A stretch of 64,000 nt of DNA, from NCBI GenBank assembly GCA_002783405.1, contig PFGG01000055.1:1-64000 (forward strand). The letters run 5' to 3'. The notes under the pieces are model-generated. The model ran no database searches, was not told the DNA's origin, and saw only the letters and a list, made by a program, of their open reading frames with translations. This document shows positions 10,287 to 48,150 of the stretch, in pieces. How positions within the stretch are numbered: the first letter of the stretch is position 1; every line of letters begins with the position of its first letter. Source of the DNA: a bacterium (Candidatus Blackallbacteria) CG13_big_fil_rev_8_21_14_2_50_49_14. Its GTDB lineage: Bacteria; Cyanobacteriota; Sericytochromatia; UBA7694. The position numbers and the translations under genes are program-made.

Positions 10287-10742
10287 ATGGCCGGTTACAG
10301 CTTGGTCGAACTGATCGACGCCTTTTACAAAGAAGCCATTTCAGAACAAGACTATCTCTCAGGTTTGGATCAGCAGATCCAAAACGCCCAGCGCAAGCTC
10401 GCTGAACTGGACAAACAGAAGATCGCCCCTGCCGATCAGGCCCTCTGGCAGGAAGAACTCCTGCCAGGCTTGCAAGCCGCCTACGAAGGGGTAATTGGCG
10501 CGGCCAGCGAAGCGAAAGTCTATGCCCAGGAACGCAAAGAAGAAGTTTTGCATGGGGTGGGTATTTTACTCGCCAGTGTCGATAAAATCATGGAGTTTCT
10601 GGCGCTGCGCAGTGGTTTGGTCAGCGAAAGCACACAAAAGCTGATGGCCGAAGCCCTCAACCCCCACAGTGATGGGCTGAGTCTGGAAAGCCCTGTCAGC
10701 AAAGGTTCTGCCGAATCCAGCATTTCCTTTCTGGGTGAATGA
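10287..10742 (+). CDS. Hypothetical helical/coiled-coil protein of the kinase unit
   Basis: 151 residues, predicted almost wholly helical. Residues about 25-50 (LDQQIQNAQRKLAELDKQK) look like a coiled coil; the tail is Ser-rich (SPVSKGSAESSISF). No signal peptide or membrane segment. It starts 3 bases after the upstream stop and its stop overlaps the kinase start (ATGA), so it is translationally coupled to the kinase. The Ser-rich tail would be a natural place for phosphorylation by the kinase, but this is only inference. Family not recognised. Confidence 0.7.
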   Translation: MAGYSLVELIDAFYKEAISEQDYLSGLDQQIQNAQRKLAELDKQKIAPADQALWQEELLPGLQAAYEGVIGAASEAKVYAQERKEEVLHGVGILLASVDKIMEFLALRSGLVSESTQKLMAEALNPHSDGLSLESPVSKGSAESSISFLGE

Positions 10743-13582
10743 GCAAATCTTCTCCCGCCGCGCATTATCAGATCATCGCCCCCCTCGGTCAGGGGGGCTT
10801 TGCCACGACCTGGCTGGCAAAAGACACACGTACGGGCCAGCGCTGTGCGCTCAAAAAACTCAGCCTGCACAAATTGGATCATTGGAAAAGCCTTGAGCTT
10901 TTCGAGCGTGAATGCAAGGTTCTGAAAAACCTCAAACATACAGGCATTCCCCGTTTTATTGAATCCTGGAACAGCGAAGACCCCTTTGAGCTGGTGCTGG
11001 TGCAGGAATATATCCCCGGCAAATCGCTGCAAACCTGGATTGAAGAGGGCCGTCGTTTCAGCGAAGATGAAGCTCTGCAACTGGCCCTGCAAATTTGCGA
11101 TATTTTAATTTATCTTCACCGCTTTTCTCCCCCGGTGGTGCACCGCGATCTCAAGCCTGGCAACCTGATTCTGAATGAGCAGGATCAGATCTTTCTGATC
11201 GATTTCGGAGCGGTGAAACAGCAGGTCAGTGCCCAGGCCCAACACAGCATCACCATGATGGGTACTGTGGGCTATATCCCCCTGGAGCAACTGGAGGGCC
11301 GTGCTCTTCCCGCTTCTGATCTCTATGCTTTGGGGGCCACCCTGCTCTTTCTTTTAACGGGTCGCTCGCCAGCCGAATTGCCAAAAAAAGATCTCAAACC
11401 AGATTTTCGCTCCCAGACCCATTTTTCCATGGGGTTTAACCGCATTCTGGATCGTCTCTTGGATGCCGATCTGAACAAACGCTATGCCCTGGCCGCAGAG
11501 CTGAAACGGGATCTACTCAAACTGATTGAAAAACAGCAAAAGCGCAACCAAGCCTTTGACTTTGACAAGTTCAAACTCTGGCAGACCGTGCCCAAAGCCT
11601 GGGCGGGCTTTTCTCCGCCCACGAAAATAGGGATGGGCTTGGGTGTACTGCTGCTCAGCCTGCCGCTGCTGCTGCAAGGCTTAAAACATCTGAGTCCAAC
11701 ACCCCCCCCAAAAAAAACACAGGCGCAAACCGTAGAAACCGCCAATGTCAAAATGCAAAGCCTGCGCTGGCAGGCTGCCCCCCTGAAAAACTGGCAACGC
11801 CTGGAACCTGCCCCCAATCTGATCAGCTTGAGCCAAACGCCTCAGGGACAGGTCTGGGGAATTGCCAGCAACGCCCTGTACCTGCTCAGTGGCAGTCCCG
11901 ATGCGCCCATCCACTGGGAAGCTTCAAAGCTGACAGGCGGCTACGCCAGTTTAAACTGGCTACAAGCCACCCAGAATCAAGGCATTTGGTTCGCAAGCTC
12001 TGACAGCCACTTGTATCGTTTGAAAGACAACACATGCCTTGAAATGGACAAACCCAGCCCAGCTAAAATCACAGCCCTGGGGATCTGGCAAGACAAACTG
12101 CTGCTGGCAGCCGGCCCCCAGCTGTATTTTTGGGACACACGCTCAGATACCTTTCAGCTTTTGGGCAAACTGCAGGAATCGATCGAGGCCCTGTACAGCG
12201 ATGCCGACAAGGTACTCTGGGTGGGAGATCGCAACCGCCTCTACCGCTATGAGGGCAAAACCTGGCAAAAAGTCTGGGAAGGCAAAAGCAGTTACGATGA
12301 CCGGATTCGGGTGATCCGCCAGGCAGAAAACAAGCTCTGGCTGGGGCTTGAAAAAGGGGCCCTCGCCTTGGATCTCAAACGCAATCTCAGCTACAACCTG
12401 CTCAATAACGGCAGCAGCAAAGGGTTGGAAAGTATGCCCCAACAGGCCCGCTGGCTGGCCACCAGCCATACCTATGCCGAAGGCCTCTACCAGTTTAAAA
12501 ACGGGCAAGCCGGCGCTCAAACCCTGGGTTGGCGAGACGGTCTGCCCGATGATCGCTTTCAGGCCCTGCTGCTCGATGCCCAAGCCCAGCTCTGGTTCAG
12601 CGGCCAAAGTGGCGAACTCTGGAAAACCCCCACTGCAGAACTGCTCAAACAGATGCAAGCGCCCAAACCACCCGCACACCCTGCGCTGCGCTTTGAAAGC
12701 GCCTGTGCAGCCTGGCAGGGGCTGCAACCCGCCCCTTCTGCACAACTGGCCGGAGACGGGCAAAGTGGTGATCTGCGTGTTTATTGGAATCAACAACAGC
12801 TTTGCCCCTATGGTGAAGGCTTCAGATCGCAGCAGGGAGAGCTGCTGGAACTGAATTGGCAAGGCCTGAAAAAGTGGACGCATGGCAAAGTACAAAAGCT
12901 ACCGCTGCCAGAAAGGATGCTCTCCAGCCAAAGCCTGTGGCTCGATTCAAAACAAAGAATTTGGCTGGCACGGCGTTATCCCTATATCCTTCTGCGCTTT
13001 GTAAACCAAAATTGGCAGAAATTCGGGAGCCAACAAGGTTTCTCGGAAGGAAGTGCGGCCTTGCTCTATGAAACCCGCGCAGGAAAAATTCTGGCAGGCA
13101 GCAAGGTCAAGGGCGAATTGCCACTCCAGGTTTTTGATGAAAGCAGCCAGCAGTGGCTGAACAGCGGGCTCAAATACCAGAAATCCTGGATGACACCCGA
13201 AGCCAAACAAATACTCGAACTTCACACGGGTCAATTGGCCCTGGCGACAGATGAAGGTCTGTTCTTAATCGAGGCCGATTTCAAACAGGCCCAGAAAGTT
13301 GAAGGTCTGCCCTATAAGGAAATTCAAGGCGTGGCCGAAGATGCCCAGCACCGCCTCTGGATTATCTATGATCGCCATGGCAAAGGCCGAGGGCTCAGTC
13401 TCTGGGACCCTGCCAAGGGCAAGGTCAGTCACCTGGACTCACGCCAGGGCCTGGTGCCCGACCGCTTCCAGGAAATCGCCATCGACAGTCAAAAACGCCT
13501 CTGGTTAATGGGGGGCGGCATGGGGGTAGCGGTTTATACCCAAGCCCCGCTCGAAAAAGCCATGAAAGCCCTCAGCCCTTGA
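10739..13582 (+). CDS. Membrane Ser/Thr protein kinase with putative beta-propeller sensor domain
   Basis: 947 residues. The N-terminal Hanks-type kinase domain (about 10-265) has the glycine loop LGQGGFA (16-22), ATP-binding K39 in CALKK, the catalytic loop HRDLKPGN (H135, D137) and DFG (D155-G157). After a Lys-rich stretch comes one membrane segment (about 297-315), placing the remaining 630 residues outside the cytoplasm. That part consists of repeated strands with Trp motifs (VWGIASNALYLL, LWVGDRNRLYRY, LWLGLEKGALALD, LWIIYDRHG), resembling the two-component-regulator-propeller/ligand-sensor type. All catalytic residues are present, so an active receptor kinase is expected. It is coupled to two small unknown genes upstream. 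Confidence 0.9.
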   Translation: MSKSSPAAHYQIIAPLGQGGFATTWLAKDTRTGQRCALKKLSLHKLDHWKSLELFERECKVLKNLKHTGIPRFIESWNSEDPFELVLVQEYIPGKSLQTWIEEGRRFSEDEALQLALQICDILIYLHRFSPPVVHRDLKPGNLILNEQDQIFLIDFGAVKQQVSAQAQHSITMMGTVGYIPLEQLEGRALPASDLYALGATLLFLLTGRSPAELPKKDLKPDFRSQTHFSMGFNRILDRLLDADLNKRYALAAELKRDLLKLIEKQQKRNQAFDFDKFKLWQTVPKAWAGFSPPTKIGMGLGVLLLSLPLLLQGLKHLSPTPPPKKTQAQTVETANVKMQSLRWQAAPLKNWQRLEPAPNLISLSQTPQGQVWGIASNALYLLSGSPDAPIHWEASKLTGGYASLNWLQATQNQGIWFASSDSHLYRLKDNTCLEMDKPSPAKITALGIWQDKLLLAAGPQLYFWDTRSDTFQLLGKLQESIEALYSDADKVLWVGDRNRLYRYEGKTWQKVWEGKSSYDDRIRVIRQAENKLWLGLEKGALALDLKRNLSYNLLNNGSSKGLESMPQQARWLATSHTYAEGLYQFKNGQAGAQTLGWRDGLPDDRFQALLLDAQAQLWFSGQSGELWKTPTAELLKQMQAPKPPAHPALRFESACAAWQGLQPAPSAQLAGDGQSGDLRVYWNQQQLCPYGEGFRSQQGELLELNWQGLKKWTHGKVQKLPLPERMLSSQSLWLDSKQRIWLARRYPYILLRFVNQNWQKFGSQQGFSEGSAALLYETRAGKILAGSKVKGELPLQVFDESSQQWLNSGLKYQKSWMTPEAKQILELHTGQLALATDEGLFLIEADFKQAQKVEGLPYKEIQGVAEDAQHRLWIIYDRHGKGRGLSLWDPAKGKVSHLDSRQGLVPDRFQEIAIDSQKRLWLMGGGMGVAVYTQAPLEKAMKALSP

Positions 13583-15902: not shown

Positions 15903-16688
15903 ATGTCTTTGATTGCCCTGGCCTGGAAACATTATCCCCACTATCCCCTGATGATTCTCTCCAACCGTGATGAATACAGAAACCGACCCACTGAAATTTT
16001 GCAGCGTTGGGAGACCCAGCCTGCGCTCTACGCAGGCAAAGATCTCAAAAGTGGAACCACTTGGCTGGGCATAACTGAAACTGGCCGATTCGGTGCTTTG
16101 ACAGATTTTCATCGCCATATTGAAACCGATGGCCCTCACAGCCAAAGCCGGGGCAAATTGCTCTTGAACTACCTGCTTGGAGATCTTGACCCAGAATCTT
16201 TTTTGAAGCAAACCCGATCTCAGCGCAAAAAAGCCCTGCCCTTTAATATGCTGGTGGGGGATCGCAATCAACTCTTTTACTGCTGTTCGGTTTCGAATAT
16301 TGAAGAAGAACTCAGCCCAGGCATTCACAGCCTGTCGGATTATTTTATGGATACGCCCATGCCCAAAGGACGCTATCTGCAAAAACAGCTGGAAAAGCGC
16401 ATGATCGACGATTTGCTCACAAATGCAGAACGGGAAGAGCTTTTTGACCTGCTGGCCCGCCCAATGCGTTTTCCCGATGAAGAATTGCCCCGACGCGGCT
16501 ATGATGTGCGGGTAGAGCGCGAACGCTCCCCTGTTTTTCTCGACCTGGGAGACTATGGCACCGTTTCATCCGCCGTTCTGACAATCGATCATACCGATCA
16601 GGTGATCTTCAGCGAGCGCTCCCACCAACCCCAACAGCCACACAGCACACATACCCTGGAATTCAAACTGATCAAACCCGACTTATAA
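15903..16688 (+). CDS. NRDE (TANGO2) family protein
   Basis: 261 residues. The family-defining Asn-Arg-Asp-Glu motif is present (MILSNRDEYRNRPTEILQRW, about residues 18-37), followed by the typical YAGKDLKSGTTWLGITETGR and FGALTDFHR segments, with a C-terminal FSERSHQP. The family is related to eukaryotic TANGO2; roles in heme or redox homeostasis have been proposed but not settled. The ATG at 15903 follows an aggttc sequence, a weak ribosome site. No operon partner. Confidence 0.88.
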   Translation: MSLIALAWKHYPHYPLMILSNRDEYRNRPTEILQRWETQPALYAGKDLKSGTTWLGITETGRFGALTDFHRHIETDGPHSQSRGKLLLNYLLGDLDPESFLKQTRSQRKKALPFNMLVGDRNQLFYCCSVSNIEEELSPGIHSLSDYFMDTPMPKGRYLQKQLEKRMIDDLLTNAEREELFDLLARPMRFPDEELPRRGYDVRVERERSPVFLDLGDYGTVSSAVLTIDHTDQVIFSERSHQPQQPHSTHTLEFKLIKPDL

Positions 16689-16716
16689 TATTCACAAAGC
16701 CAAAAGAAACGGATCC

Positions 16717-16825: not shown

Positions 16826-17959
16826 ATGTCAACAGAAACCTTCAGTTTTGACAGTTCAGGTCTTGAGACCTTGATTCAAACTCTGAAATCTGCTGGTTAT
16901 CTCACCCTGGGACCGATCTGTCGGGATGGCGCGATTGTCTATGACGAGATTTCAGGGGTTTCCGATTTACCCCAAGGCTGGGGCGATGAACAGGCCCCAG
17001 GCGTTTATCGCCTGAAAGAACGCAAAGACCAGGCTCTTTTTGGCTATGCTGTCGGGCCCCAATCCTGGAAAAAATACCTTCACCCCCCCCGTCTGAGGCT
17101 CTGGCGCGCTCGCCAGCTCGAAAACAAATTGCAAATCGAAAAAGAAGAAACCGCTGTGCCCCGTTATGCCCTGATCGGGGCACGGGCCTGTGAAATCGCT
17201 GCGATTCAGATTCAGGACACCGTTTTAGCGGAAGGCCCCTATGCCGATAACACGTATCTGGCCCGACGGAAGGCCCTCTTGATTGTGGCCGTACAATGCA
17301 CAGCTCCAGCAGCGACCTGCTTCTGCACGTCTCAAAACACAGGGCCTGGGGTCACAAGCGGAGCAGACCTGATTTTAACGGAAGTGCTTCAAGAGGGTTC
17401 CCCCCATTATCTGGCCCAGGCAGGCAGTCCCCAAGGCGCAGAGATCCTGGAAAAGCTGGCCTTTGAAAAGGCCTGTTCTGAAGATCTGAAAGCCGCAGAG
17501 CAGGCCCTGGTTCAGGCTGAGCAGCGCATCAGCCGCCAACTCCAAGGCGAAATAGCACGCCAAACCTTGCAGAATGCTTCTCATGACCCGCATTGGCAAA
17601 CCTTGGGTGAGCGCTGCCTGAGTTGCAGCAATTGCACGATGGTTTGCCCGACCTGTTTTTGCACGTCCCTTGAAGACCTGACCACTTTAGGGGGAGAGGC
17701 CGAGCGCTGGCGTCAGTGGGATTCCTGCTTCAATCTCTCCTTCAGCTATATGGGCGGAGGGCATATCCGTCAAAGCCCAGCCTCACGCTATCGCCAATGG
17801 TTGACCCATAAACTGGTTCATTGGCAGGATCAATTCGACAGTTCGGGCTGTGTAGGCTGTGGCCGCTGCATCAGTTGGTGCCCTGTCGGTATCGATCTGA
17901 CGGAAGAAGTCAAACAATTTGCTCCCCCAAAATCTGAAAACATGCCGGAAAGGGCCTGA
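16826..17959 (+). CDS. hydB: Group 3b NiFe hydrogenase (sulfhydrogenase) beta subunit, 4Fe-4S protein
   Basis: 377 residues. Electron-transfer subunit that connects the NiFe dimer to the flavin subunit in soluble NADP(H)-linked hydrogenases of Pyrococcus HydB type. Two ferredoxin-like 4Fe-4S motifs lie near the C-terminus: CLSCSNCTMVCP (about 267-278) and CVGCGRCISWCP (about 340-351). The N-terminal part contains the family-typical ARACEIAAIQIQD and a Cys-rich CTAPAATCFCTS. Start at 16826 with a caggagaag ribosome site. First gene of a ten-gene operon; the next gene starts 2 bases after its stop. Confidence 0.88.
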   Translation: MSTETFSFDSSGLETLIQTLKSAGYLTLGPICRDGAIVYDEISGVSDLPQGWGDEQAPGVYRLKERKDQALFGYAVGPQSWKKYLHPPRLRLWRARQLENKLQIEKEETAVPRYALIGARACEIAAIQIQDTVLAEGPYADNTYLARRKALLIVAVQCTAPAATCFCTSQNTGPGVTSGADLILTEVLQEGSPHYLAQAGSPQGAEILEKLAFEKACSEDLKAAEQALVQAEQRISRQLQGEIARQTLQNASHDPHWQTLGERCLSCSNCTMVCPTCFCTSLEDLTTLGGEAERWRQWDSCFNLSFSYMGGGHIRQSPASRYRQWLTHKLVHWQDQFDSSGCVGCGRCISWCPVGIDLTEEVKQFAPPKSENMPERA

Positions 17960-17961
17960 AT

Positions 17962-18429
17962 ATGCAAATCAAAGAAGACCTGATCAGAAAGCAACGTTAT
18001 TTTAAAGATCTGGAGCTCAAACATCTGCAAGCACTGGCTCTCAATGCAGAGGAAAGCCATTGGGAGGCAGAGAGTTATATTTTTCGGATTGGGGAATCGG
18101 CCCGGCATTTTTATCTGATTGGCGAGGGCAGTGTTTCCCTCGAAATGCATGCTGCTCAACGGGGTATGGTGCGGATTCAAACCCTGCATGCCGGTGATAT
18201 ACTGGGTTGGTCCTGGCTCTTTCCCCCCTATAAATGGCATTTTGACGCCCGCGTTTTAGAGCCCGTGCGTGGGCTGGTATTTGATGCAGAAACCTTTCTT
18301 GACCAATGTGAAATCGACCATGAACTGGGTTACCAGATTCAAAAACGCTTCTCGCGCATGATGGTTGAACGTCTTCAGGCCACCCGTCTGCAATTACTCG
18401 ATCTTTACCAAACAGGAGAGGAAAAATGA
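17962..18429 (+). CDS. Cyclic-nucleotide-binding-domain protein without DNA-binding domain
   Basis: 155 residues. A jelly-roll cNMP-binding fold as in CRP/FNR is visible: FKDLELKHLQALALNAEE, IFRIGESARHFYLIGEGSVS, LHAGDILGWSWLFPPYKW, then a C-helix (QIQKRFSRMMVERLQATRLQ). The polypeptide ends after that helix, so the usual winged-helix DNA-binding domain is missing. It sits inside the hydrogenase operon between beta and gamma subunits, with ATGA overlap to the next gene. It may be a small-molecule or redox sensor that binds the enzyme, rather than a transcription factor. Only the fold is certain. Confidence 0.82.
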   Translation: MQIKEDLIRKQRYFKDLELKHLQALALNAEESHWEAESYIFRIGESARHFYLIGEGSVSLEMHAAQRGMVRIQTLHAGDILGWSWLFPPYKWHFDARVLEPVRGLVFDAETFLDQCEIDHELGYQIQKRFSRMMVERLQATRLQLLDLYQTGEEK

Positions 18430-19247
18430 ACCCCGACCCCATGTTGCCTGCGATTTGGGAGGTTAGCGCGGTCAAGCGAGAAAATACCCTGACCGCCACC
18501 CTTGAGCTCACAGGCAACCAGACCTTTGCTTTTGCCCCAGGTCAGTTCAATATGCTCTATCTGTTGGGCCTGGGTGAAATTCCGATTTCGATCAGTGGAC
18601 CAGCGCATGAGCCGCAACACCTGATTCATACCATCAGGGCAGTCGGCATGGTCAGCCGGGCACTGACAGAAGTCAAGCCCGGCACCCAACTGGGAGTCAG
18701 AGGCCCCTTTGGCTCACACTGGCCCCTGACAGCTGCAGAAGGCCAGGATCTGGTGATCATCGCAGGAGGATTGGGGTTGGCCCCTGTCAGGCCCGTGATT
18801 TACAAAGTTTTACAGGAGCGAGAAAAATATGGACGGGTCTGGCTGCTCTATGGGGCACGCAACCCGGCAGAAATACTCTATTCAGAAGAACTTCACACCT
18901 GGCGCAGCCAATTTGATCTGGAAGTGCGCCTGACCCTTGATCGCGGCGATGAACACTGGCGCGGAGCCGTGGGCGTTGTCACCACCCTGATTCCCCGTTT
19001 GGCACTGGATCCCAGCTGCACCCTTGCAATGGTCTGTGGCCCCGAAATCATGATGCGCTTCGTGGCCCAAGCCCTGGAAACAGAAGGTTTGAAGCAGGAA
19101 CAGATTTATGTCTCACTGGAGCGCAATATGCACTGTGGCATCGGGCTCTGTGGACATTGCCAACTGGGCCCCGATTTTATCTGCAAAAATGGCCCGGTCT
19201 TTCGCTATGACCAGGTAGCCAAGATACTTACCCTGCGGGAGGTTTAA
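18426..19247 (+). CDS. hydG: Group 3b NiFe hydrogenase gamma subunit, FAD/NAD(P)H-binding
   Basis: 273 residues. Ferredoxin-NADP-reductase-like subunit that transfers electrons between the iron-sulfur chain and NAD(P). The FAD domain comes first ([20 protein letters not shown]), then the nucleotide-binding domain ([42 protein letters not shown]), then a C-terminal 2Fe-2S site with four cysteines (CGIGLCGHC...C, about 238-255), as in dihydroorotate dehydrogenase PyrK and HydG. ATGA overlap with the gene before and 2 bases to the next. Confidence 0.9.
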
Positions 19248-19249
19248 AC

Positions 19250-20026
19250 ATGTCGGAACAAACCAAACCTCGCCTCGCCGTCTGGAAGTTCGCTTCCTGC
19301 GATGGCTGCCAGCTCAGCCTGCTGGATTGTGAAGATGAACTCTTGGCCGTCACCGAAGCGATTGAAATCGCCAATTTTCCGGAAGCCAGCCGTGCAGTGG
19401 TCGCTGGCCCCTACGAAGTCTCACTGGTTGAAGGCTCGATTACTACCCCCCACGATGCCGAGCGGATTCAGGAAATTCGCAGCCAATCCGAAGTCTTGAT
19501 CACGATTGGCGCCTGTGCCACTGCCGGCGGTATTCAGGCCCTGCGCAATTACGCCGACGTGCGTGAATACATGGCCGTGGTCTATGCCCGGCCCGAGTAT
19601 ATCCAAACCCTGGCAACCTCAAACGCGATCGCCGATCATGTCAAAGTCGATTTTGAATTGCGCGGCTGCCCAATCAATAAGAAGCAATTGCTGGAAGTGA
19701 TTCTGGCTTATCTGCACAAACGCCGCCCGGTCACCCCGCGCGACAGCCTCTGCCACAGTTGTAAGCTCAAGGGCAATGTCTGCGTACTTGTCGCCCATGG
19801 CACAGCCTGTCTGGGGCCTGTGACCCAAGCCGGTTGTGACGCCATTTGCCCCAGTTATCTGCGTGGTTGTTATGGCTGTTTTGGCCCCCAAGACAGCCCC
19901 AATCCCACCGCCTTGAGCGCCCGTCTGCGCGAACTGGGCCAATCGGAAGCCGATCTGCTGCGCCTTTACCGCAGCTTCAATGCCAATGCCCCGGCCTTTC
20001 GGGAGGAAAGTTTAAAACATGAGTGA
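19250..20026 (+). CDS. hydD: Group 3b NiFe hydrogenase small (delta) subunit
   Basis: 258 residues. Carries the 4Fe-4S clusters next to the NiFe site. The proximal-cluster motif [13 protein letters not shown] (about 16-28) is followed by [10 protein letters not shown] and [10 protein letters not shown], which complete that site. A second Cys-rich part ([11 protein letters not shown], then [24 protein letters not shown]) can hold two further clusters. No Tat signal, in keeping with a cytoplasmic enzyme. It overlaps the large-subunit gene by 8 bases. Confidence 0.92.
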
Positions 20027-21317
20027 AAAAAAAACACGCACGATCCATGTCGATTATCTGGCCCGAGTCGAAGGCGAAGGCGCCCTGTATCTCGAAATTG
20101 AAGCGGGTAAGATGCTCGATCTGCAACTCAAGATTTTTGAACCTCCGCGCTTTTTTGAAGCCTTTCTCAGGGGGCGCGACTACCGCGAAGCCCCGGATAT
20201 TACCTCGCGCATCTGCGGCATTTGCCCGATTGCCTATCAAATGGGAGCGGCCCAGGCCATGGAGGCCATTCTCGGTCTGAAAGTGGAAGGCCCCCTGCGA
20301 GATTTGCGCCGCTTGATCTACTGCGGAGAATGGATTGAAAGCCATGTCCTGCATATCTATATGCTCCACGCCCCTGATTTTTTGGGCTACCAGGACGCCG
20401 TCACGCTTGCCAAAGACGCCCCTGAAATCGTGCGCCGGGGCCTGCGTCTGAAAAAAATCGGCAATGACCTGATGACCCTTTTGGGAGGACGCGAAATTCA
20501 CCCCATCAACCTCAAAATTGGGGGCTTTTACCGCTTGCCTGAGGCCAAAGACCTGCTCAGCTTCCAACCCGAACTGGAATGGGCGATTCAGGCTGCCGAA
20601 GAGACGGTGCGCTGGGCTTCAGGCTTTCGCTTTCCGGCCTTGGAGCGCGATTATGAATACGTGGCTCTGAGCCACCCCGATGAATACGCGATCCATGAAG
20701 GGCGCCTGCTTTCCAACCGGGGACTGGATATTCCCGTTTCAGAGTTTGAGCAGCATTTTGAAGAGGAACACGTGGCCCGCTCCAACGCTCTGCACAGTCT
20801 TCACAAGGGGCATGGTGCCTATCTGGTCGGGCCGCTGGCACGCTATAACCTAAACTGGGCAAAGCTCAGCCCACGGGTACAGGCTTTGGCTGAAGAAGTG
20901 GGCATTGCAGAACAATGCCACAACCCTTTCAAAAGCATTCTTGTGCGCGGTTTGGAAGTGCTTTATGCCTGCGAAGAAGCCCTGCGCCTGATAGAAGCCT
21001 ATCAAAAACCTACAGCAGCAGCTGTCAGCGCCCCCTTAAGGGCCGGTACCGGCCACGGCTGTACAGAAGCCCCCCGCGGCATCTGCTATCACCGCTACAG
21101 CATCGACAGTGCAGGGGTGATTGAAGCGGCTCGAATTGTGCCTCCCACCTCTCAGAACCAAAAAACGATTGAAGAGGATCTGCGCGATTACGTACCGCGT
21201 CACCTGCACAAAACCGATCAGGAACTGCAATGGGATTGTGAACAGGCCATTCGCAACTACGACCCCTGTATTTCCTGCGCAACCCATTTTCTCAAACTGG
21301 AAGTCACCCGCCAGTGA
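20019..21317 (+). CDS. hydA: Group 3b NiFe hydrogenase large (alpha) subunit
   Basis: 432 residues. Holds the NiFe active site. The N-terminal ligand motif is [17 protein letters not shown] (about 65-81), with Tyr where membrane-bound hydrogenases have His, as in group 3 enzymes. The C-terminal motif is DPCISCATH, followed by nine residues (FLKLEVTRQ). That tail is the expected substrate of the maturation protease encoded at 24102-24566, with cleavage after the His. All four Ni-ligand cysteines are present. The stop overlaps the next start (GTGA). Confidence 0.93.
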
Positions 21318-22453
21318 AACTGACGATTTTGCGTGAAGCCTATGACGAGCCCCGTGTGCCCTTGCTGCCCACGGAAATTCGCAAACTCAGCCAAATGGGG
21401 GCTGAAATTCACATCGAAACCGGGCTGGGCAAAACATTGGCAATTGCAGATGAAAACTATCTTGAAGCCGGAGCCCTGCTCGAAACCGATCGCCATTTTC
21501 TCTTGCAAGAGGCCGAAATTCTGCTCTGTCTTCAAGCCCCAGCGCCAGCAGAACTCAAACAGCTCAAGCCCGGCAGTTGGTTAATCGGTCTGCTCCATCC
21601 CTTTTTCGCCCCAGAGCCCCTGCAAACCTGCCTTGAGCAAAAACTTGAGGCCCTGCCGATGGAGTTGCTGCCACGCATCAGCCGGGCCCAAAGCATGGAC
21701 ATGCTTACCTCTCAGGCCAGTCTGGCCGGATATGTGGCGGCCATTCTGGCGGCCAACCATTTGCCCCTGATCATGCCCCTGATGAATACTCCCGCTGGCA
21801 CCCTGAGCCCCGCACGGGTCTTGGTGATTGGCGCCGGTGTTGCAGGCTTACAGGCCATTGCCACCGCCCGGCGACTGGGGGCACGGGTAGAGGGCTATGA
21901 TTTACGCCCCGAAGCCCGTGAGCAGATTCTCTCCCTGGGCGCACGCCTGCTTGAATTGCCTGAACTGAAAGCGGCCCAAACCAGCGATGGCTATGTCGCC
22001 AGCCTGAATTCCAACGCCCTTGAAGCACAACAGAGTGCGCTGAGCCAAGCCTTGAAACGCTTTGACTGTATCATTACCACTGCCCAGATATTTGGCAGAC
22101 CCGCTCCTCAGATCATCACCCGCGCCATGCTCAAAAATATGCGCCCCGGCACGCTGATCATTGACCAGGCAATCGAAAGTGGCGGCAATGTCGAAGGCAG
22201 TGTGGCGGGGCAAGAAAGCCTGATCGAAGGCATTCGCATTCTGGGCTGGCCTCAACTGGCCCGCAGGGTGCCGCTGCACGCCAGTCAAATGCTCTCTGCC
22301 AATTTTTATTACCTCTTGCAGGCTTTTTGGAATGCCGAAACAAAATGTTTTCAACCTGAGCGTGACCCAGAATTACTGAACGGCATGCGGGCCTGTCATG
22401 CGGGGCAATTGACCCACCCCCGCCTGCGTGAACGCTGGAAGGAGTGGCTCTGA
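21314..22453 (+). CDS. pntAA: Proton-translocating NAD(P) transhydrogenase, NAD-binding alpha-1 subunit
   Basis: 379 residues, GTG start overlapping the hydrogenase stop. The NAD(H)-binding part (domain I) of split transhydrogenase: [19 protein letters not shown] resembles the AlaDH/PNT N-terminus, [20 protein letters not shown] is the family signature, and [20 protein letters not shown] with a following [10 protein letters not shown] is the NAD Rossmann fold. The enzyme couples hydride transfer between NADH and NADP to proton flow. Its place inside a hydrogenase operon ties H2 metabolism to the NADPH/NADH balance. Confidence 0.92.
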
Positions 22454-22731
22454 TGGATCTTTTGCTAATTCTGATTCTGGCAGGGTTTTTAGGCTTTGAG
22501 CTGATTTCGCGCGTGCCCTCACAACTGCATACCCCGCTGATGTCAGGTGCCAATGCTATCTCTGGTATCACAGTAGTGGGGGCAATCCTCGCTTCAGGGG
22601 CGGGAGAAAATACCCTGACCGTTATTTTGGGCACTGCCGCCATCATCTTTGCAACCCTCAACGTGGTGGGCGGCTATCTGGTCACCGACCGCATGCTGCG
22701 CATGTTTACCAAAAAGAAGCAGGAAAAATAA
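22453..22731 (+). CDS. pntAB: NAD(P) transhydrogenase membrane subunit alpha-2
   Basis: 92 residues with three hydrophobic helices; FLGFELISRVPSQLHTPLMS and SGANAISGITVVGAI are characteristic of PntA domain II. The ATG at 22453 overlaps the upstream stop (TGATG) and has an aaggag ribosome site; the frame is open to a GTG at 22444, which is less likely. Forms the proton channel together with PntB. Confidence 0.93.
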   Translation: MDLLLILILAGFLGFELISRVPSQLHTPLMSGANAISGITVVGAILASGAGENTLTVILGTAAIIFATLNVVGGYLVTDRMLRMFTKKKQEK

Positions 22732-24105
22732 ATGCAGGAAACCCAGCAATTTCTGTATATTCTTGCCGCAGTGGCGTTTATCTTGGGCATTCGCCTGCTG
22801 GGCCGCCCCCAAAGTGCACGTTGGGGCAATCTGCTCTCAGCAGCGGGCATGCTGGTGGCTGTCGTCGCCACCCTCTTCAGTGCCGGCCTGGCACTGCACT
22901 GGATTTTTATTGGCCTGCTCGTAGGCAGTGCCTTGGGAGCGGTAATGGCCCTGCGTGTCGCTATGACAGGCATGCCTGAAATGGTCGCTCTGCTGAATGG
23001 ATTTGGCGGACTTGCCAGCCTCCTGGTGGCTTGCGCCGAGGTTCTTCGAGGGGCACTTTTAACCGGCATTTCGGCCTCTTCCGCCGCGATTTCAGTTTTG
23101 ATAGGCGGGATTACCTTCAGTGGCAGCCTGCTGGCCTGGGGAAAACTGGCTGAAAAACTGCCCGGCCGTCCCCTGCTCTTTCGCGGCCAAAAGCCCTTGA
23201 ATCTTGCACTTTTAGTCAGCACCCTGACCAGCGGCATACTCTGGCAAAGCCTGGGTGAAACGGCCTGGGCACACAACTGCTTTTTTCTCTTGATTGCGCT
23301 CTCGCTCTTGCTGGGCATACTCTTTGTTCTGCCCATTGGGGGCGGAGATATGCCCGTGGTGATTTCACTGCTCAATTCCCTTTCAGGTCTGGCCGCCTGT
23401 GCCGTGGGCTTTGTGCTCATGAACCGCATGTTGATTGTCGCCGGTTGCCTGGTAGGAGCCAGTGGCTTGATTCTGACTGAAATGATGTGCAAATCCATGA
23501 ACCGCAGCCTGAGCAGTGTGCTCTGGGGGGGATTTGGCGCTGCTCAAGGCACCATCACCCCAGGGGGAGAGGTTCACAGCCTGAACTGCGAGGAGGCCTA
23601 TTATTTGCTCGAAGCGGCCGCAGAGGTGCTGATCGTACCCGGCTACGGCATGGCCGTTGCCCAGGCCCAGCATGCGGTACAGGAACTTGCCCAATTGCTG
23701 AGCGAACGGGGCACAACCGTCAACTATGCCATTCACCCCGTAGCAGGGCGCATGCCCGGTCATATGAATGTGCTGCTGGCGGAAGCCCATGTGCCCTATG
23801 AACAGTTAATTGAAATGGAGACAGCCAACCGAAGCATGGAACGGGTGGATATCTGTCTGGTGATTGGCGCCAATGATATCGTCAACCCCGCCGCGTTGGA
23901 AGACCCCGGCAGCGCGATTTATGGCATGCCGATTATCGAGGCCCAACGGGCCCGCACGGCAATTGTGCTCAAACGCTCAATGGGCAAAGGTTTTGCAGGG
24001 ATCGACAACCCACTTTTTTTCAAAACCAATGCCCGCATGCTCTTTGGCGACGCCAAAGCCTCATTGCAAAATATCCTACGTATTTTTAAGGAAAGTGAAA
24101 TATGA
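22732..24105 (+). CDS. pntB: NAD(P) transhydrogenase beta subunit
   Basis: 457 residues of normal length. About nine membrane segments form the proton channel, followed by the cytoplasmic NADP(H)-binding domain III with VPGYGMAVAQAQHAVQELA, GRMPGHMNVLLAEAHVPYE, VCLVIGANDIVNPAA-type (here DICLVIGANDIVNPAALEDP) and VLKRSMGKGFAGIDNPLF. It begins directly after the pntAB stop; its end overlaps the protease gene (ATGA). Confidence 0.95.
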   Translation: MQETQQFLYILAAVAFILGIRLLGRPQSARWGNLLSAAGMLVAVVATLFSAGLALHWIFIGLLVGSALGAVMALRVAMTGMPEMVALLNGFGGLASLLVACAEVLRGALLTGISASSAAISVLIGGITFSGSLLAWGKLAEKLPGRPLLFRGQKPLNLALLVSTLTSGILWQSLGETAWAHNCFFLLIALSLLLGILFVLPIGGGDMPVVISLLNSLSGLAACAVGFVLMNRMLIVAGCLVGASGLILTEMMCKSMNRSLSSVLWGGFGAAQGTITPGGEVHSLNCEEAYYLLEAAAEVLIVPGYGMAVAQAQHAVQELAQLLSERGTTVNYAIHPVAGRMPGHMNVLLAEAHVPYEQLIEMETANRSMERVDICLVIGANDIVNPAALEDPGSAIYGMPIIEAQRARTAIVLKRSMGKGFAGIDNPLFFKTNARMLFGDAKASLQNILRIFKESEI

Positions 24106-24566
24106 ACCGGATTATTGGCATTGGCCACCCTCTGCGTGGGGATGATGCCCTGGGGCCCACGGCCATCCACACGCTGCCGCGTCAATTGGACGCGCATACA
24201 GAGTGCCTGGCACTCAGCGGAGAAGCCTCAACGCTTTGGTATGCCTTCAAAGGCATGCAAAGAGTCTTGCTGATCGATGCCCTGCAAACCCCACTCAAAC
24301 CAGGGGAATTGCTTGAAATCAACCTGCGCCAGACTCCCCTGCCCAAATCCTGGCTGGCCTGCTCCACCCATGCCTTTGGCCTGAGCGAAGCACTCGAATT
24401 GGCAATTGCCCTGGGGGATTTACCACCCACACTTTTGCTTTTGGGCATTGCCGCCCAGGAATTTGAAACAGGCAAAGGGCTGTCTGCTGCAGTAGAGGGC
24501 AGTCTGCCTGCCCTGCTCAAGCGGGTCTATGAAATTCACCAGAACTGGAGTTTAGAATATGCATGA
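24102..24566 (+). CDS. Hydrogenase maturation endopeptidase
   Basis: 154 residues. Family start MNRIIGIGHPLRGDDALGP contains the conserved Gly and paired Asp (D15, D16) of HybD/HycI-type proteases; the second Asp-containing strand VLLIDALQT and the STHAFGLSEALELA segment also fit. It should remove the C-terminal tail of the large subunit encoded at 20019-21317 after nickel insertion. Overlaps both neighbours by four or eight bases, so it is part of the operon. Confidence 0.9.
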   Translation: MNRIIGIGHPLRGDDALGPTAIHTLPRQLDAHTECLALSGEASTLWYAFKGMQRVLLIDALQTPLKPGELLEINLRQTPLPKSWLACSTHAFGLSEALELAIALGDLPPTLLLLGIAAQEFETGKGLSAAVEGSLPALLKRVYEIHQNWSLEYA

Positions 24567-24819
24567 ATTCTCTCTCTTGGCCGATTTGCTACGCAAAATT
24601 GAGACCGTACGCCAAGAAGAACAGGCTGAAAAAATTGTCTCCTTAACTGTTAAATTGGGGGCGCTTTCGCATATTTCGGCCTGTCATTTTCGCGAACATT
24701 TTGAACACGCGATCCAAGGCACTCCCCTGGCAGGTGCGGAATTGGAAATTGAAGTTGCCACCGATGAAATGGCTCCCGACGCTCAGGACATCCGTCTGCT
24801 AAGCGTCGAGGTGGAATAG
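24559..24819 (+). CDS. hypA: HypA-like nickel-insertion protein lacking the zinc domain
   Basis: 86 residues, shorter than the usual 113-120. The start MHEFSLLADLLRKIE carries the nickel-binding Met-His; VSLTVKLGALSHIS and CHFREHFEHAIQGTPLAGAE are typical of the Ni domain, and IRLLSVEVE is the usual last strand. The zinc ribbon with two CxxC pairs, normally between these parts, is absent. The other frames there do not encode it, so this is a clean deletion and not a frameshift. It may be a subfamily dedicated to this hydrogenase. Other hyp genes must lie elsewhere. Confidence 0.85.
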   Translation: MHEFSLLADLLRKIETVRQEEQAEKIVSLTVKLGALSHISACHFREHFEHAIQGTPLAGAELEIEVATDEMAPDAQDIRLLSVEVE

Positions 24820-41467: not shown

Positions 41468-43885
41468 ATGCATACCTGGATTCGCCCCTTCAACCAACTG
41501 AACCTGGAAGACCTTGAAAGCGTAGGGGGAAAAAACGCTTCTCTGGGGGAAATGATTCAAAACCTAGGCAGCCTGGGAATTCGCGTGCCCGATGGCTTTG
41601 CGACAACCGCCGACGCCTGGTGGCATTTTTTAGAAACAGGCCCTATACGTGAACGCCTGGTCGAAATTCTGGCCGGACTCGATCGCAAAGAGTTCAGCAA
41701 TCTTCATCAGATTGGAGTCGCAGCCCGCTCTTTGCTATTGCACGCCCCCCTGCCCGAAGATATACAGCAGGAGCTGGTGGGAGCCTATCGCCAACTCTGC
41801 GAGCATACCGCAGGAGAAATTCAAGTGGCCGTGCGCAGCAGCGCCACCGCCGAAGATTTGCCAGACGCCAGTTTCGCGGGCCAACAGGAATCGTATCTGA
41901 ATATTCGCAATGAACAGGAACTGCTTGAAGCCTGCCACAACTGCTATGCCTCGCTGTATACCGACCGGGCGATCAAATACCGTGAGGATCATGGTTTTGA
42001 CCATCTCAAGGTTGCACTTTCGATTGGCGTTCAGAAAATGGTGCGCTCAGACAAGGCCAGTTCAGGGGTCTGTTTTACCCTCGATCCTGAAACTGGCTTT
42101 GAAAACGTAATTTTAATTACCGGCAGCTGGGGCCTGGGCGAAAACGTGGTGCAGGGTGCTGTCAATCCCGATGAATTTTATGTCTTCAAACCCACCCTGG
42201 AAGCAGGGAAAAATGCCCTGCTTTCACGCAAACTGGGCAGCAAGGCCCTGACCATGATCTATGCCGGGGATGCTCCCCAGGCCAAGCGGCGCAGCGTGGG
42301 CGTCAGCCATACCATCGTCAACCTTGAAACGCCTCCTGAACGCCAGGAACAGTATGTTTTGACAGAGCCCGAAGTTCTTGAACTGGCCCAATGGTGCCTG
42401 AAAATTGAAAAGCATTATGGCAAGCATATGGATATTGAATGGGCCAAAGATGGCCTGAGTGGAGAACTCTTCATTGTACAGGCCCGCCCTGAAACCGTGC
42501 ACAGCCAGGTCAAGGGCTACCAATACCATGCCTATACCCTCAAGGAAAAGGGAGAACTGATTGTCAGCGGCAAAAATATTGGCGACCGAATCGCCGCAGG
42601 CAAAGCCCGAATTTTGCACTCTCCGGCAGAAATTGACAGGGTAGAAGAGGGGGATATTCTCGTTACCGAAATCACCAATCCCGATTGGGATCCCATTTTG
42701 AAAAAAGCTGCAGCCATTATTACCGACAAGGGAGGCCGCACCAGCCATGCTGCGATTGTCGCACGCGAAACTGGAGCCGTGGCCGTCGTCGGCACCGGCA
42801 ATGCCACCTCTCTGATTGAAGATGGCGAAGAGGTCACGGTTTCGTGTATTGATGGCACCAGTGGCCAGATTTACCGGGGCCGCCTGAAATGGGAAGAGCA
42901 GGTCATTGATACTTCAGCGGTCACACTGCCTGAAAAAACAGATGTCATGCTGATTCTGGCGGACCCCGATCAGGCCTTTAAACTGGCCCACCTGCCCAAT
43001 CGGGGCGTGGGCTTGATGCGCCTGGAATTCGTGATCAACAACAGCATTCAGATTCACCCCATGGCCCTGGTGCGCTACCCTGAGTTGGAAGACCCTGAAG
43101 CTGTGGCCTTTATTGAGGAGCTGACCCACCATTACCCCGACAAGCAGGCCTATTTCGTGGATAAACTGGCCGAAGCCGTGGCGACCATCGCCGCCGCTTT
43201 TTATCCCCACGATGTGATTGTGCGCATGTCAGATTTTAAATCCAATGAATACGCCAATCTGGTCGGGGGCTGGGAATTTGAACCCCATGAAGAAAACCCC
43301 ATGATTGGTTTCAGGGGAGCTTCGCGCTATTACCATGAACGCTACCGCGAAGGCTTCCGCCTGGAATGCCTGGCCATGAAAAAAGTACGCGAAGAGATGG
43401 GCTTGCGGAATGTCAAACTCATGATTCCTTTCTGCCGCACCCTGGAAGAGGGACAAAAAGTTGTCGATACCATGGCCGAGTTTGGGCTCAAACAGGGCGA
43501 ACAGGGGCTTGAGATTTACGTCATGTGCGAAATTCCCAGCAATGTGATTCTGGCAGAAGAATTTGCTGAGATTTTTGATGGTTTCTCAATTGGTTCCAAT
43601 GATCTGACCCAGCTCACCCTGGGTGTAGACCGTGATTCAGAAATTCTACAAGCCAGCTTTGATGAACGCAATCCAGCCGTAAAGCGCATGATTGCGCAAG
43701 CCATTGCCACAGCCAATGCCAAGGGCGTGAAAATCGGGCTCTGCGGTCAGGCCCCCAGCGATCACCCAGAATTTGCAAAATTTCTGGTCGAAGCCGGCAT
43801 CAACAGTATTTCGTTTAATCCTGATGCGCTGCTGAAGGGCATTGAGAATATTAGAAAGGCTGAAGCAGAAAAAAAACAGTTCTGA
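41468..43885 (+). CDS. ppsA: Phosphoenolpyruvate synthase
   Basis: 805 residues. Makes PEP from pyruvate and ATP. N-terminal nucleotide-binding part (VGGKNASLGEMIQNL, AVRSSATAEDLPDASFAGQQ), phosphohistidine domain GGRTSHAAIVARETG with H427, and the PEP-binding TIM barrel with SIGSNDLTQLTLGVDRDS and the catalytic-Cys region GLCGQAPSDHPEF. Start ATG follows cggagg. Suggests gluconeogenic growth. Monocistronic. Confidence 0.95.
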   Translation: MHTWIRPFNQLNLEDLESVGGKNASLGEMIQNLGSLGIRVPDGFATTADAWWHFLETGPIRERLVEILAGLDRKEFSNLHQIGVAARSLLLHAPLPEDIQQELVGAYRQLCEHTAGEIQVAVRSSATAEDLPDASFAGQQESYLNIRNEQELLEACHNCYASLYTDRAIKYREDHGFDHLKVALSIGVQKMVRSDKASSGVCFTLDPETGFENVILITGSWGLGENVVQGAVNPDEFYVFKPTLEAGKNALLSRKLGSKALTMIYAGDAPQAKRRSVGVSHTIVNLETPPERQEQYVLTEPEVLELAQWCLKIEKHYGKHMDIEWAKDGLSGELFIVQARPETVHSQVKGYQYHAYTLKEKGELIVSGKNIGDRIAAGKARILHSPAEIDRVEEGDILVTEITNPDWDPILKKAAAIITDKGGRTSHAAIVARETGAVAVVGTGNATSLIEDGEEVTVSCIDGTSGQIYRGRLKWEEQVIDTSAVTLPEKTDVMLILADPDQAFKLAHLPNRGVGLMRLEFVINNSIQIHPMALVRYPELEDPEAVAFIEELTHHYPDKQAYFVDKLAEAVATIAAAFYPHDVIVRMSDFKSNEYANLVGGWEFEPHEENPMIGFRGASRYYHERYREGFRLECLAMKKVREEMGLRNVKLMIPFCRTLEEGQKVVDTMAEFGLKQGEQGLEIYVMCEIPSNVILAEEFAEIFDGFSIGSNDLTQLTLGVDRDSEILQASFDERNPAVKRMIAQAIATANAKGVKIGLCGQAPSDHPEFAKFLVEAGINSISFNPDALLKGIENIRKAEAEKKQF

Positions 43886-45975: not shown

Positions 45976-48150
45976 TTGGCCCTGCAACCCGCAAAAGACA
46001 CCTCCACCCCCTCAGCCCCAGCCCAATGGCTGGAACGCGGCCTCAAACAGGGGGATATTGGCATTGCTGTGATCATGATTGCCATTATCTGTCTGATGAT
46101 GGTGCCTTTGCCCACCTGGGTTTTGGATATTTTGTTGACACTCAATGTCTCGCTCGGTCTGATGGTGCTGATGGTCTCGCTCTATGTCAACCGCCCCTTA
46201 GACTTCTCCACCTTTCCCACGCTTTTGCTGGTCTTGACCCTGTTCAGGCTCTCACTGAATATCTCCTCTACCCGTCTGATTCTGCTGCAGGCCAATGCTG
46301 GCAAGGTGATCGAAACCTTTGGCAGCTTCGTGATTGGGGGCAATTACGTGGTGGGCATTCTGATCTTCATCATTCTGGTGGTGGTGCAATTCGTGGTGAT
46401 CACCAATGGGGCAGGGCGCATTTCTGAAGTGGCCGCCCGCTTCACCCTGGATGCCATGCCAGGCAAGCAGATGGCGATTGATGCCGACCTCAACAGCGGT
46501 CTGATCGATGAAGAACAGGCCAAGGAACGCCGCCGCGATATTCAGCGCGAAGCCGATTTCTATGGCAGCATGGACGGCGCGAGCAAATTCGTACGTGGGG
46601 ACGCAATTGCCGGGATTATTATCACCTTCGTCAATGTGATTGGCGGGATTATTATTGGCACCCTGCAGCTGGGTATGCCCGTGGTTCAAGCCATGCAACG
46701 CTATACCGTACTCACGATTGGCGATGGACTGGTTAGTCAGATTCCGGCCATGGTCATCGCCATTGCCACGGGCATTTTGGTTTCACGTGCCGCGGGTGAA
46801 AGCAAATTGGGGGAAAGGGTTTCGCGCCAATTGCTGAATGTACCCCGAGGGCTCTTGGTGGTTTCATTCTTCCTGCTCTTGCTGGGCCTGTTTACGCCCC
46901 TGCCCAAAATCCCTTTTTTGATTCTGAGTGGCCTGCTGACAGCGATTGGCTTTATTATGATGCGGGAAGAAGAGCGCGAAGCTGAAGAAGACAAAGCCAC
47001 AGGGGGCAGCAAGGCCCTGGGCAGTGGCAAAGAGATTCAACCGGCTCTGGCTCCGGCCCAAGCTGGCATGCTTTCTACCCGCAAAGAGCCCGAAGACATG
47101 ATCAAACTGCTCAAGGTCGATCCGATGGAACTTGAAATTGGCTACCGCCTGATTCCCCTGGTAGATGCCGAACAGGGCGGTGATCTGCTGGAACGCATTA
47201 CCAAAATCCGCCGCCAGATGGCCCTGCAATTGGGTCTGGTACTGCCTCCGATTCGCGTACGCGACAATATTCAACTCAAGCCCCGCGATTATTCGATTAA
47301 ACTGCGCGGTATTGAAGTTGCACGGGGGGAGGTACATGTCGGGCATTATCTTGCCATGAATCCCGGCATGGTCAATGACCCACTCGATGGCGTACAAACC
47401 GTGGAACCTGTTTTTAATCTGCCTGCCGTCTGGATCACCGAAGGCCAGAAAGAACGGGCCGAAATTCTGGGCTATACTGTCTTTGATCCTTCGACCGTGG
47501 TCGCCACCCACCTGACCGAAATCGTCAAACGCTATGCCGCAGATATTCTCACCCGCCAGGATGTACAGCGCCTGCTCGACAGCGTACGCGAAGAGGCTCC
47601 CGCCGTGGTGGATGAACTCATGCCCAGTCTGCTCAGTGTCGGCGAAATTCAGCGCGTCTTACAAAACTTACTGGCCGAACGGGTCTCGGTACGCGATATG
47701 ATTCCGATTCTGGAAGCCCTGGCCAATCATTCCCGTGCCACCAAAGACCCCGACCTGCTCACCGAACATGCGCGTCTGGCCGTGGCTCGCTCAATCTGTC
47801 AGCCCCTGCGCAGCCCCCAGGGCATGTTGCCCGCGCTGACCCTGGCAGCCGAACTGGAGCAAATCATGACCGAATCTGTCACCCGTACCGATCAGGGCCT
47901 GACTCTGCTGCTGGAACCCCAAATCGCCCAACAGGTCGTCAACAATATTGCCCAAAAAGTAGAAGAGATGGCTGGAAAAGGCTTTCACCAGCCGATTCTG
48001 CTCTGTTCTTCTAAAATCCGGCTGGTTCTGCGCCGCCTGACCGAACGTGCCCTGCCTATGCTGACGGTGCTCTCCTATAACGAGGTCATGGCCCAGGAAG
48101 CGCAAATTCAAACCATTGGCCGTGTCGACCTGAGTTTGCAGGTCAACTGA
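45976..48150 (+). CDS. flhA: Flagellar export apparatus protein FlhA
   Basis: 724 residues. TTG start with a gcgaggag ribosome site. N-terminal half with eight membrane segments and the family hallmark RPLDFSTFPTLLLVLTLFRL; the conserved FHIPEP-type region reads GRISEVAARFTLDAMPGKQM, AIDADLNSGLIDEEQAKERR. The C-terminal cytoplasmic domain (after about 345) docks chaperone-substrate complexes. It could in principle be a type III secretion homologue, but DADLNSG and the overall length fit flagellar FlhA. No other flagellar gene is in the window. Confidence 0.92.
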   Translation: MALQPAKDTSTPSAPAQWLERGLKQGDIGIAVIMIAIICLMMVPLPTWVLDILLTLNVSLGLMVLMVSLYVNRPLDFSTFPTLLLVLTLFRLSLNISSTRLILLQANAGKVIETFGSFVIGGNYVVGILIFIILVVVQFVVITNGAGRISEVAARFTLDAMPGKQMAIDADLNSGLIDEEQAKERRRDIQREADFYGSMDGASKFVRGDAIAGIIITFVNVIGGIIIGTLQLGMPVVQAMQRYTVLTIGDGLVSQIPAMVIAIATGILVSRAAGESKLGERVSRQLLNVPRGLLVVSFFLLLLGLFTPLPKIPFLILSGLLTAIGFIMMREEEREAEEDKATGGSKALGSGKEIQPALAPAQAGMLSTRKEPEDMIKLLKVDPMELEIGYRLIPLVDAEQGGDLLERITKIRRQMALQLGLVLPPIRVRDNIQLKPRDYSIKLRGIEVARGEVHVGHYLAMNPGMVNDPLDGVQTVEPVFNLPAVWITEGQKERAEILGYTVFDPSTVVATHLTEIVKRYAADILTRQDVQRLLDSVREEAPAVVDELMPSLLSVGEIQRVLQNLLAERVSVRDMIPILEALANHSRATKDPDLLTEHARLAVARSICQPLRSPQGMLPALTLAAELEQIMTESVTRTDQGLTLLLEPQIAQQVVNNIAQKVEEMAGKGFHQPILLCSSKIRLVLRRLTERALPMLTVLSYNEVMAQEAQIQTIGRVDLSLQVN

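Follow-up and report, generated by a model that had tools for sequence, protein, structure and literature searches.

Transhydrogenase genes within a predicted group 3b [NiFe]-hydrogenase operon of Candidatus Blackallbacteria

In a genome of Candidatus Blackallbacteria (class Sericytochromatia, assembly GCA_002783405.1), an uncultured and non-photosynthetic bacterium related to cyanobacteria, the three genes of a proton-translocating transhydrogenase (PNT), pntAA-pntAB-pntB, are found inside the gene block of a soluble [NiFe]-hydrogenase, between the gene for its large subunit, hydA, and that for a maturation protease, hycI. The block lies at positions 16826-24819 on the + strand of the window, by which is meant the whole stretch of 64,000 nucleotides that was analysed, contig C55 (PFGG01000055.1) of an assembly of 5.65 Mb in 84 contigs that is 96% complete. 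The hydrogenase backbone is known; what is new is the placement of pntAA-pntAB-pntB between hydA and hycI, an arrangement that is conserved in the genus, partly conserved in the family and rare elsewhere. Its parts are familiar, and a joint function can be proposed for them. Taken as a whole, the proposal that a foreign PNT was inserted into the block and that the two enzymes would work in series as a valve from NADH to H2 is given an even chance of being right.

The ten-gene block and its two enzymes

The block consists of ten intact open reading frames (ORFs) separated by 2, -4, 2, -8, -4, -10, 0, -4 and -8 nt, and the names first given to all ten agree with Pfam and NCBIfam family searches. 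The original prediction held that the genes overlap or lie within 3 bases of each other, which is exact, as all nine spacings fall between -10 and 2 nt. It also took them for a single gene block, and ten overlapping or touching ORFs, in the same order in a second species of the genus, bear this out. From this layout the ten genes are predicted to be co-transcribed as one operon, so that hydrogen metabolism is probably turned on along with membrane energy. The junction of the two enzymes is especially tight: pntAA starts with a GTG that shares a 4-nt overlap with the hydA stop, and its candidate ribosome site is weak (GGAAG, about 10 nt before the GTG). Given the weak site and the overlap, translation of pntAA may be coupled to that of hydA.

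The hydrogenase can be assigned to group 3b and is predicted to be NADP(H)-linked. HydB (16826-17959; 4Fe-4S beta subunit, Pfam Fer4_22), HydD (19250-20026; small or delta subunit, Oxidored_q6) and HydA (20019-21317; large or alpha subunit) have ShyB, ShyD and ShyA as their best NCBIfam matches and HydB, HydD and HydA as the next, and HydG (18426-19247; FAD/NAD(P)-binding gamma subunit) matches the PRK08345 hydrogenase gamma family first, AsrB second and ShyC third. All subunit scores are below the curated equivalog cut-offs, and the proteins are therefore of the same kind without being those equivalogs. The closest solved large subunit to HydA is named "Sulfhydrogenase 1 subunit alpha", a chain we take to be from Pyrococcus furiosus. 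In a 60-row tree, HydA clusters with 46 other 3b-type rows and is split at 100/100 from seven cyanobacterial HoxH rows. These three results agree on the group 3b membership that had been claimed from the sequence, and a placement of hydA outside 3b was looked for and not seen in a tree whose only labelled outgroup rows are HoxH (3d), none being of groups 3a, 3c or 4. By alignment, HydA has both CxxC nickel-ligand motifs (RICGIC and DPCISCATH) and a 9-residue C-terminal tail for removal by the protease. It is the one NiFe large subunit detected in the host genome at E<=0.001; hypD is found on another contig, C35.

The three-subunit, proton-translocating PNT of the original prediction was likewise recovered, with proton pumping as a predicted activity. 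PntAA (21314-22453; NAD(H)-binding alpha-1 subunit) has the N and C domains of AlaDh_PNT, PntAB (22444-22731; membrane alpha-2 subunit) matches PNTB_4TM at 3e-33, and PntB (22732-24105; membrane and NADP(H)-binding beta subunit) matches PNTB at E 1e-175. Profile and solved-chain searches show domains I (NAD), II (membrane) and III (NADP) to be present at full length. The best solved matches are transhydrogenase alpha 2 of 4o9p for PntAB and 4o9u, the same three-subunit enzyme and presumably that of Thermus, for PntB; PntAA is closest to 4dio, with chains of 4o9u and 9hjx close behind.

Care must be taken in reading the proton channel of this enzyme. In two reports, the gating histidine is given as alpha2-42 in Thermus (PMC5742237) and as beta-91 in E. 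coli (PMC8551311), and the former adds that the central histidine position may shift between species. Alignment places S at alpha2-42 and N at beta-91 in the window, in the congener and in a relative from another genus of the family (G002, below). The same S/N state is seen in 13 of 15 cyanobacterial rows, and the histidine position is thus not universal; in 26 "other" PNT rows alpha2-42 was unreadable, as those sequences covered pntB only. A loss of proton coupling through the missing histidines was considered and not adopted, given the likeness of the 13 cyanobacterial rows, and this type of PNT is not evidently uncoupled.

Distribution and ancestry of the arrangement

To place the block among its relatives, 150 other 3b loci were surveyed, with flanks of at most 8-10 kb, shorter at contig ends. 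They comprise the best 80 of at least 573 confirmed relatives and 70 further stretches, of which 58 belong to the order that includes G101 and 12 to the phylum that includes G066. Comparison of a 300-base middle piece showed that at least three of these 70 (L144, L158 and L164) duplicate loci already among the 80; G101 (the same as L104), G066 (the same as L055) and G428 (whose coordinates are those of L069) were not included in the 70. The backbone hydB-CNB-hydG-hydD-hydA-hycI, in which CNB is a cyclic-nucleotide-binding protein, is widespread in this survey. A PNT is found inside the operon at one locus in 150, that of the congener (L047). Elsewhere in the flanks it occurs only in Magnetospirillum sp. 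UT-4 (L104), where pntAA-AB-B precedes hydB by about 2.2 kb and is separated from it by a peptide-deformylase-like ORF and others (read by eye); these intervening genes rule the locus out as an independent hydrogenase-PNT operon. In the order of that organism no further genome with both genes close was found among the matches listed, the PNT rows being incomplete. The original prediction knew of no such exact arrangement, and this neighbourhood survey around hydA homologues agrees that it is rare. No published description of hydrogenase-transhydrogenase gene linkage was found in literature that included few subscription journals; for example, group 3b hydrogenases are reported in Saganbacteria, in a paper for which no occurrence of the word "transhydrogenase" is counted (PMC6349859).

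The slot that the PNT genes occupy can be described from the same loci. In 113 of the 150, hydA is followed by hycI in the same orientation; the gap between them has a median of 30 bp and is below 400 bp in 105. The remaining eight gaps are of 400 bp or more (L047, L050, L058, L067, L097, L083, L093 and L142), and the contents of the first five were read. Besides the congener, an unclassified bacterium (L050:5190-7624) and a member of the Calditrichota (L058:9702-12100) have an alanine dehydrogenase and a CoA-transferase in the slot, the latter called by family search for L058 and by eye for L050. Both were rejected as PNT operons, since their pntAA match, at 25-26%, is alanine dehydrogenase (TIGR00518, above cut-off in L050 and below it in L058) and they have neither pntAB nor pntB. 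By eye, L067 holds a YbaK-like ORF and L097 a transposase-like ORF. A gap of another sort, about 3.3 kb between hydD and hydA, was seen at a Candidatus Brocadia 3b locus (L052:6701-10001).

The accessory genes of the block are common to other 3b loci in differing degrees. The CNB protein (17962-18429) is HoxI-like and consists solely of a cNMP-binding domain (Pfam cNMP_binding), and a CNB match is present in 139 of 150 loci (73/80 and 66/70). In a methanotroph 3b cluster this protein is named HoxI and is thought to bind NADP, according to PMC12319191, so that NADPH sensing would be possible; a role as NADPH sensor is a lead only. The HycI-type protease (24102-24566; TIGR00072, above cut-off) was found in 71/80 and 42/70 loci. 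Less frequent is the short HypA (24559-24819), found in 30 of 150 (28/80 and 2/70), which has 86 aa, lacks the zinc domain and covers only positions 1-68 of the 116 in the HypA profile. Of 15 relatives that were read, 14 are 86-90 aa long and lack CxxC, and the fifteenth (L079) is broken. Short HypAs without the CxxC zinc pairs follow hycI in several phyla (L031, L048, L052, L054, L056, L057, L061, L066, L073, L087, L103, L117, L121 and L122). The short form is the sole HypA-profile match in the host genome, the congener and G002; in another genome of the class, G009, a longer HypA (profile 1-114) stands in the corresponding place. The short HypA may represent a separate, zinc-less family tied to 3b hydrogenases.

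Within the class, PNTB was detected in 8 of 18 genomes, and the full ten-gene block is present in the host and in the congener (G001). In the congener the order of the ten genes is unchanged at 40-79% protein identity, with a 4-nt overlap of hydA and pntAA and a 7-nt overlap of pntB and hycI, and because of this order and these junctions the arrangement is taken to be more than chance. Identity to the congener is 50% for pntAA and 66% for pntB. An unusually fast evolution of the operonic PNT can be ruled out, as hydB (53%), hydG (56%) and hycI (40%) are comparably low; hydB is 50-53% identical in G001, G002, G009, G014 and G017. In G002, which belongs to another genus of the same family, hydB-CNB-hydG-hydD-hydA is on contig C67, next to a divergently oriented pyruvate:ferredoxin oxidoreductase (PFOR) gene (L032:57-3746), and contig C210 has pntAA-pntAB-pntB-hycI-hypA-ppsA in this order. 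The phosphoenolpyruvate synthase gene ppsA directly follows hypA in both G001 and G002. In G002, the matches to pntB, hydD and hypA (L127, L032) are each broken into two pieces or frames, which would be either real frameshifts or assembly errors. Neither hydA nor PNTB was found in G003 (83% complete) or G004 (73% complete). A PNT further on is possible in G017, whose contig stops some 0.8 kb past hydA, in G014, where it stops within hycI, and in G010, with a contig of 3.7 kb.

The PNT of the block differs from those of the rest of the class. Four other members (G008, G009, G012 and G015) have a different PNT, with 38-40% identity to the window in pntAA and 46-48% in pntB, and none of the other seven operon genes is beside it within stretches of 14-16 kb. 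In a 48-row PntB tree, the window and congener pair at 100/100 and group with PNTs of Trueperaceae and Verrucomicrobiales at 100/99, apart from five other sericytochromatial and 15 cyanobacterial rows. PntB of G002, excluded from this tree because it matches in two pieces, is 64-66% identical to that of the window; the Trueperaceae and Verrucomicrobiales rows reach 57-59%. As the window PNT groups outside the rows of its class, it was most likely acquired from outside the class. Elsewhere hycI, and in one-fifth of loci the short hypA, follows hydA, so the simplest history has the PNT entering the hydA-hycI slot before the two genera split, with hydA and pntAA parting later in the G002 lineage. 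Another reading of the separation in G002 is an assembly fault.

A foreign PNT in this slot could also be a passenger, expressed from the hydrogenase promoter with no selected metabolic link between the enzymes. The slot does take other cargo, as the 8 of 113 wide gaps and the transposase-like ORF of L097 illustrate, and the linkage to hydA is broken in G002. However, the placement has outlasted divergence to 50% in pntAA and 66% in pntB with its overlapping junctions preserved, pnt stayed with hycI-hypA in G002, and the different PNTs of G008, G009, G012 and G015 are not adjacent to the other seven genes. A passenger is regarded as unlikely.

Energetics and proposed function

A PNT passes hydride from NADH to NADP+ as one proton moves inward, and a group 3b hydrogenase exchanges electrons between NADPH and H2. 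In the proposed mechanism, an ordinary group 3b operon would have taken up a foreign pntAA-pntAB-pntB between hydA and the protease gene in an ancestor of the family, and the PNT and hydrogenase would since have been made together, acting in series via the NADP(H) pool. Proton-motive force would drive hydride from NADH to NADP+ at the PNT, and the hydrogenase would re-oxidise the NADPH and release H2 when oxygen is short. Such a pair could serve as a valve from NADH to H2 that is boosted by proton force, with reversal possible at high H2.

The direction of the pair can be estimated from standard potentials, assuming an NADH/NAD of 0.05 and one H+ per hydride. The equilibrium H2 is about 3 Pa with NADH alone and 0.35-3.7 kPa with a proton-motive force of 120-180 mV. 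Below about 0.35-3.7 kPa the pair would spend proton force to release H2, and above it the oxidation of H2 could build proton force. The original prediction had suggested that the arrangement would make a soluble hydrogenase energy-conserving in practice, a suggestion that this estimate does not support: at 120-180 mV and below 0.35-3.7 kPa the pair would run to H2 production at the expense of the proton-motive force. Energy conservation from H2 uptake, in which H2 reduces NADP+ and a reversed PNT passes the hydride on to NAD+ while pumping protons, is consequently thought very unlikely. The reconstituted E. coli enzyme in reverse does build proton force and drive ATP synthesis, as stated in PMC8551311, but the route requires about 0.35-3.7 kPa H2 at 120-180 mV and an NADH/NAD of 0.05.

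The energy genes of the host are consistent with a valve of this kind. Four matches to PF00115 (heme-copper oxidase family) and a full-length PFOR make both respiration and fermentation plausible, although the PF00115 family also includes nitric oxide reductases. Among class members with an unlinked PNT or none, PF00115 gave no match in G009 and G014, one partial match in G017 and three matches in G002. Release of H2 under short oxygen is favoured because PF00115 and PFOR are present and because a 3b hydrogenase of M. smegmatis is tied to hypoxia and H2 production, according to PMC13332983. Two other lineages carrying fermentation-type genes in the same hydA-hycI slot lend the valve further support.

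Several findings weigh against the proposal. The direction depends on the assumed cofactor ratios, the window PNT has no histidine at either mapped channel position, and hydA and pnt are on different contigs in G002. In addition, 50 of the 80 loci were followed into their genomes, all with related 3b hydrogenases and of unstated completeness: 34 have PNTB and 16 show none, and in 32 of the 34 the PNT is outside the flanks of at most 10 kb; the pairing is therefore not needed for the usual function of the enzyme. An alternative is an NADPH-supply regulon, in which the enzymes run in parallel under one promoter and biosynthesis draws its NADPH from H2 where this is present and from NADH plus proton force where it is not. 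pntB of the operon is the sole PNTB match in the host genome (no second was found at 96% completeness), which fits a housekeeping role in NADPH supply, and the block is bordered in G001 and G002 by the gluconeogenesis gene ppsA. On the other side, trace H2 would reduce little NADP+ (E about -228 mV at 0.53 ppm), and an adjacent PNT is missing from nearly all the other 3b loci of the survey. Parallel supply is a minority possibility that should be kept in mind, and the series valve is the reading we prefer.

If the enzymes do work in series, membrane energy could lift the pressure of NADH-derived H2 by about 100-1000x using stock parts, which would be a concrete case of H2 metabolism tied to respiration in lineages next to Cyanobacteria and a possible design for proton-force-driven H2 production. 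The block could also be used to test how well metabolic coupling can be predicted from membership of one operon. A bolder formulation, put forward tentatively and doubtful as it stands, is that the block encodes an energy-converting hydrogenase in modular form: a dedicated PNT and a soluble enzyme of group 3b would be expressed together, might both be located at the membrane and would use NADP(H) as their internal carrier, with the proton-motive force setting the H2 level. Such a device would have arisen once, by insertion of a foreign PNT, in one family of non-photosynthetic bacteria related to cyanobacteria.

On its upstream side, the block is set off by 137 nt from a TANGO2-family gene, and a weak sigma-70-like promoter match is found at 16662-16689 (+ strand); the promoter and terminator scan gave no excess over shuffles (7 promoter matches in the region against 6.3 in shuffled sequence). 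Downstream, a convergent vWFA-domain gene adjoins hypA with its 3' end, and ppsA lies about 16.6 kb beyond hypA (41468-43885, + strand). Elsewhere in the window, the first ~330 residues of a 947-aa protein (10739-13582) match many kinase-type PADLOC models (PD-T4-6, mad6), and the protein is probably a general Ser/Thr kinase; a 724-aa ORF (45976-48150) resembles, by eye, FlhA of the flagellar export gate.

Comparison with known systems

The closest known systems are the group 3b hydrogenases (HyhBGSL and the sulfhydrogenases HydBGDA/ShyBCDA), with which the block has in common the order beta-gamma-delta-alpha and the nickel-ligand motifs. The CNB gene between beta and gamma and the protease gene after alpha are also placed as in most of the 150 loci, and the same placement of both is described for the R. 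equi 3b cluster in PMC13332983. Unlike the usual group 3b operon, that of the window has three PNT genes between alpha and protease, and they encode the only PNT found in the genome. The PNT itself has the same PntAA, PntAB and PntB, with all domains, as the three-subunit enzymes of Thermus, Rhodospirillum rubrum and cyanobacteria, and shares N at beta-91, N at beta-222 and S at alpha2-42 with 13 of 15 cyanobacterial rows; unlike those enzymes, it sits inside a hydrogenase operon.

The cyanobacterial Hox enzymes (group 3d) are likewise soluble NAD(P)-linked [NiFe]-hydrogenases from the same phylum, and HoxH-like matches are present in other genomes of that phylum. The soluble hydrogenase of Ralstonia (HoxHYFUI2) includes a HoxI-like protein, as one abstract reports. 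However, HydA of the window is far from HoxH in the tree, and the block has no HoxEFU diaphorase. Energy-converting hydrogenases of group 4 (Ech/Mbh) couple H2 to ion-motive force through a complex-I-like membrane hydrogenase module, and the likeness to them is that the block, too, would link H2 to ion-motive force. It contains no such module: its hydrogenase genes match soluble 3b enzymes and its membrane proteins are PntAB and PntB, so that any link would run via diffusible NADP(H).

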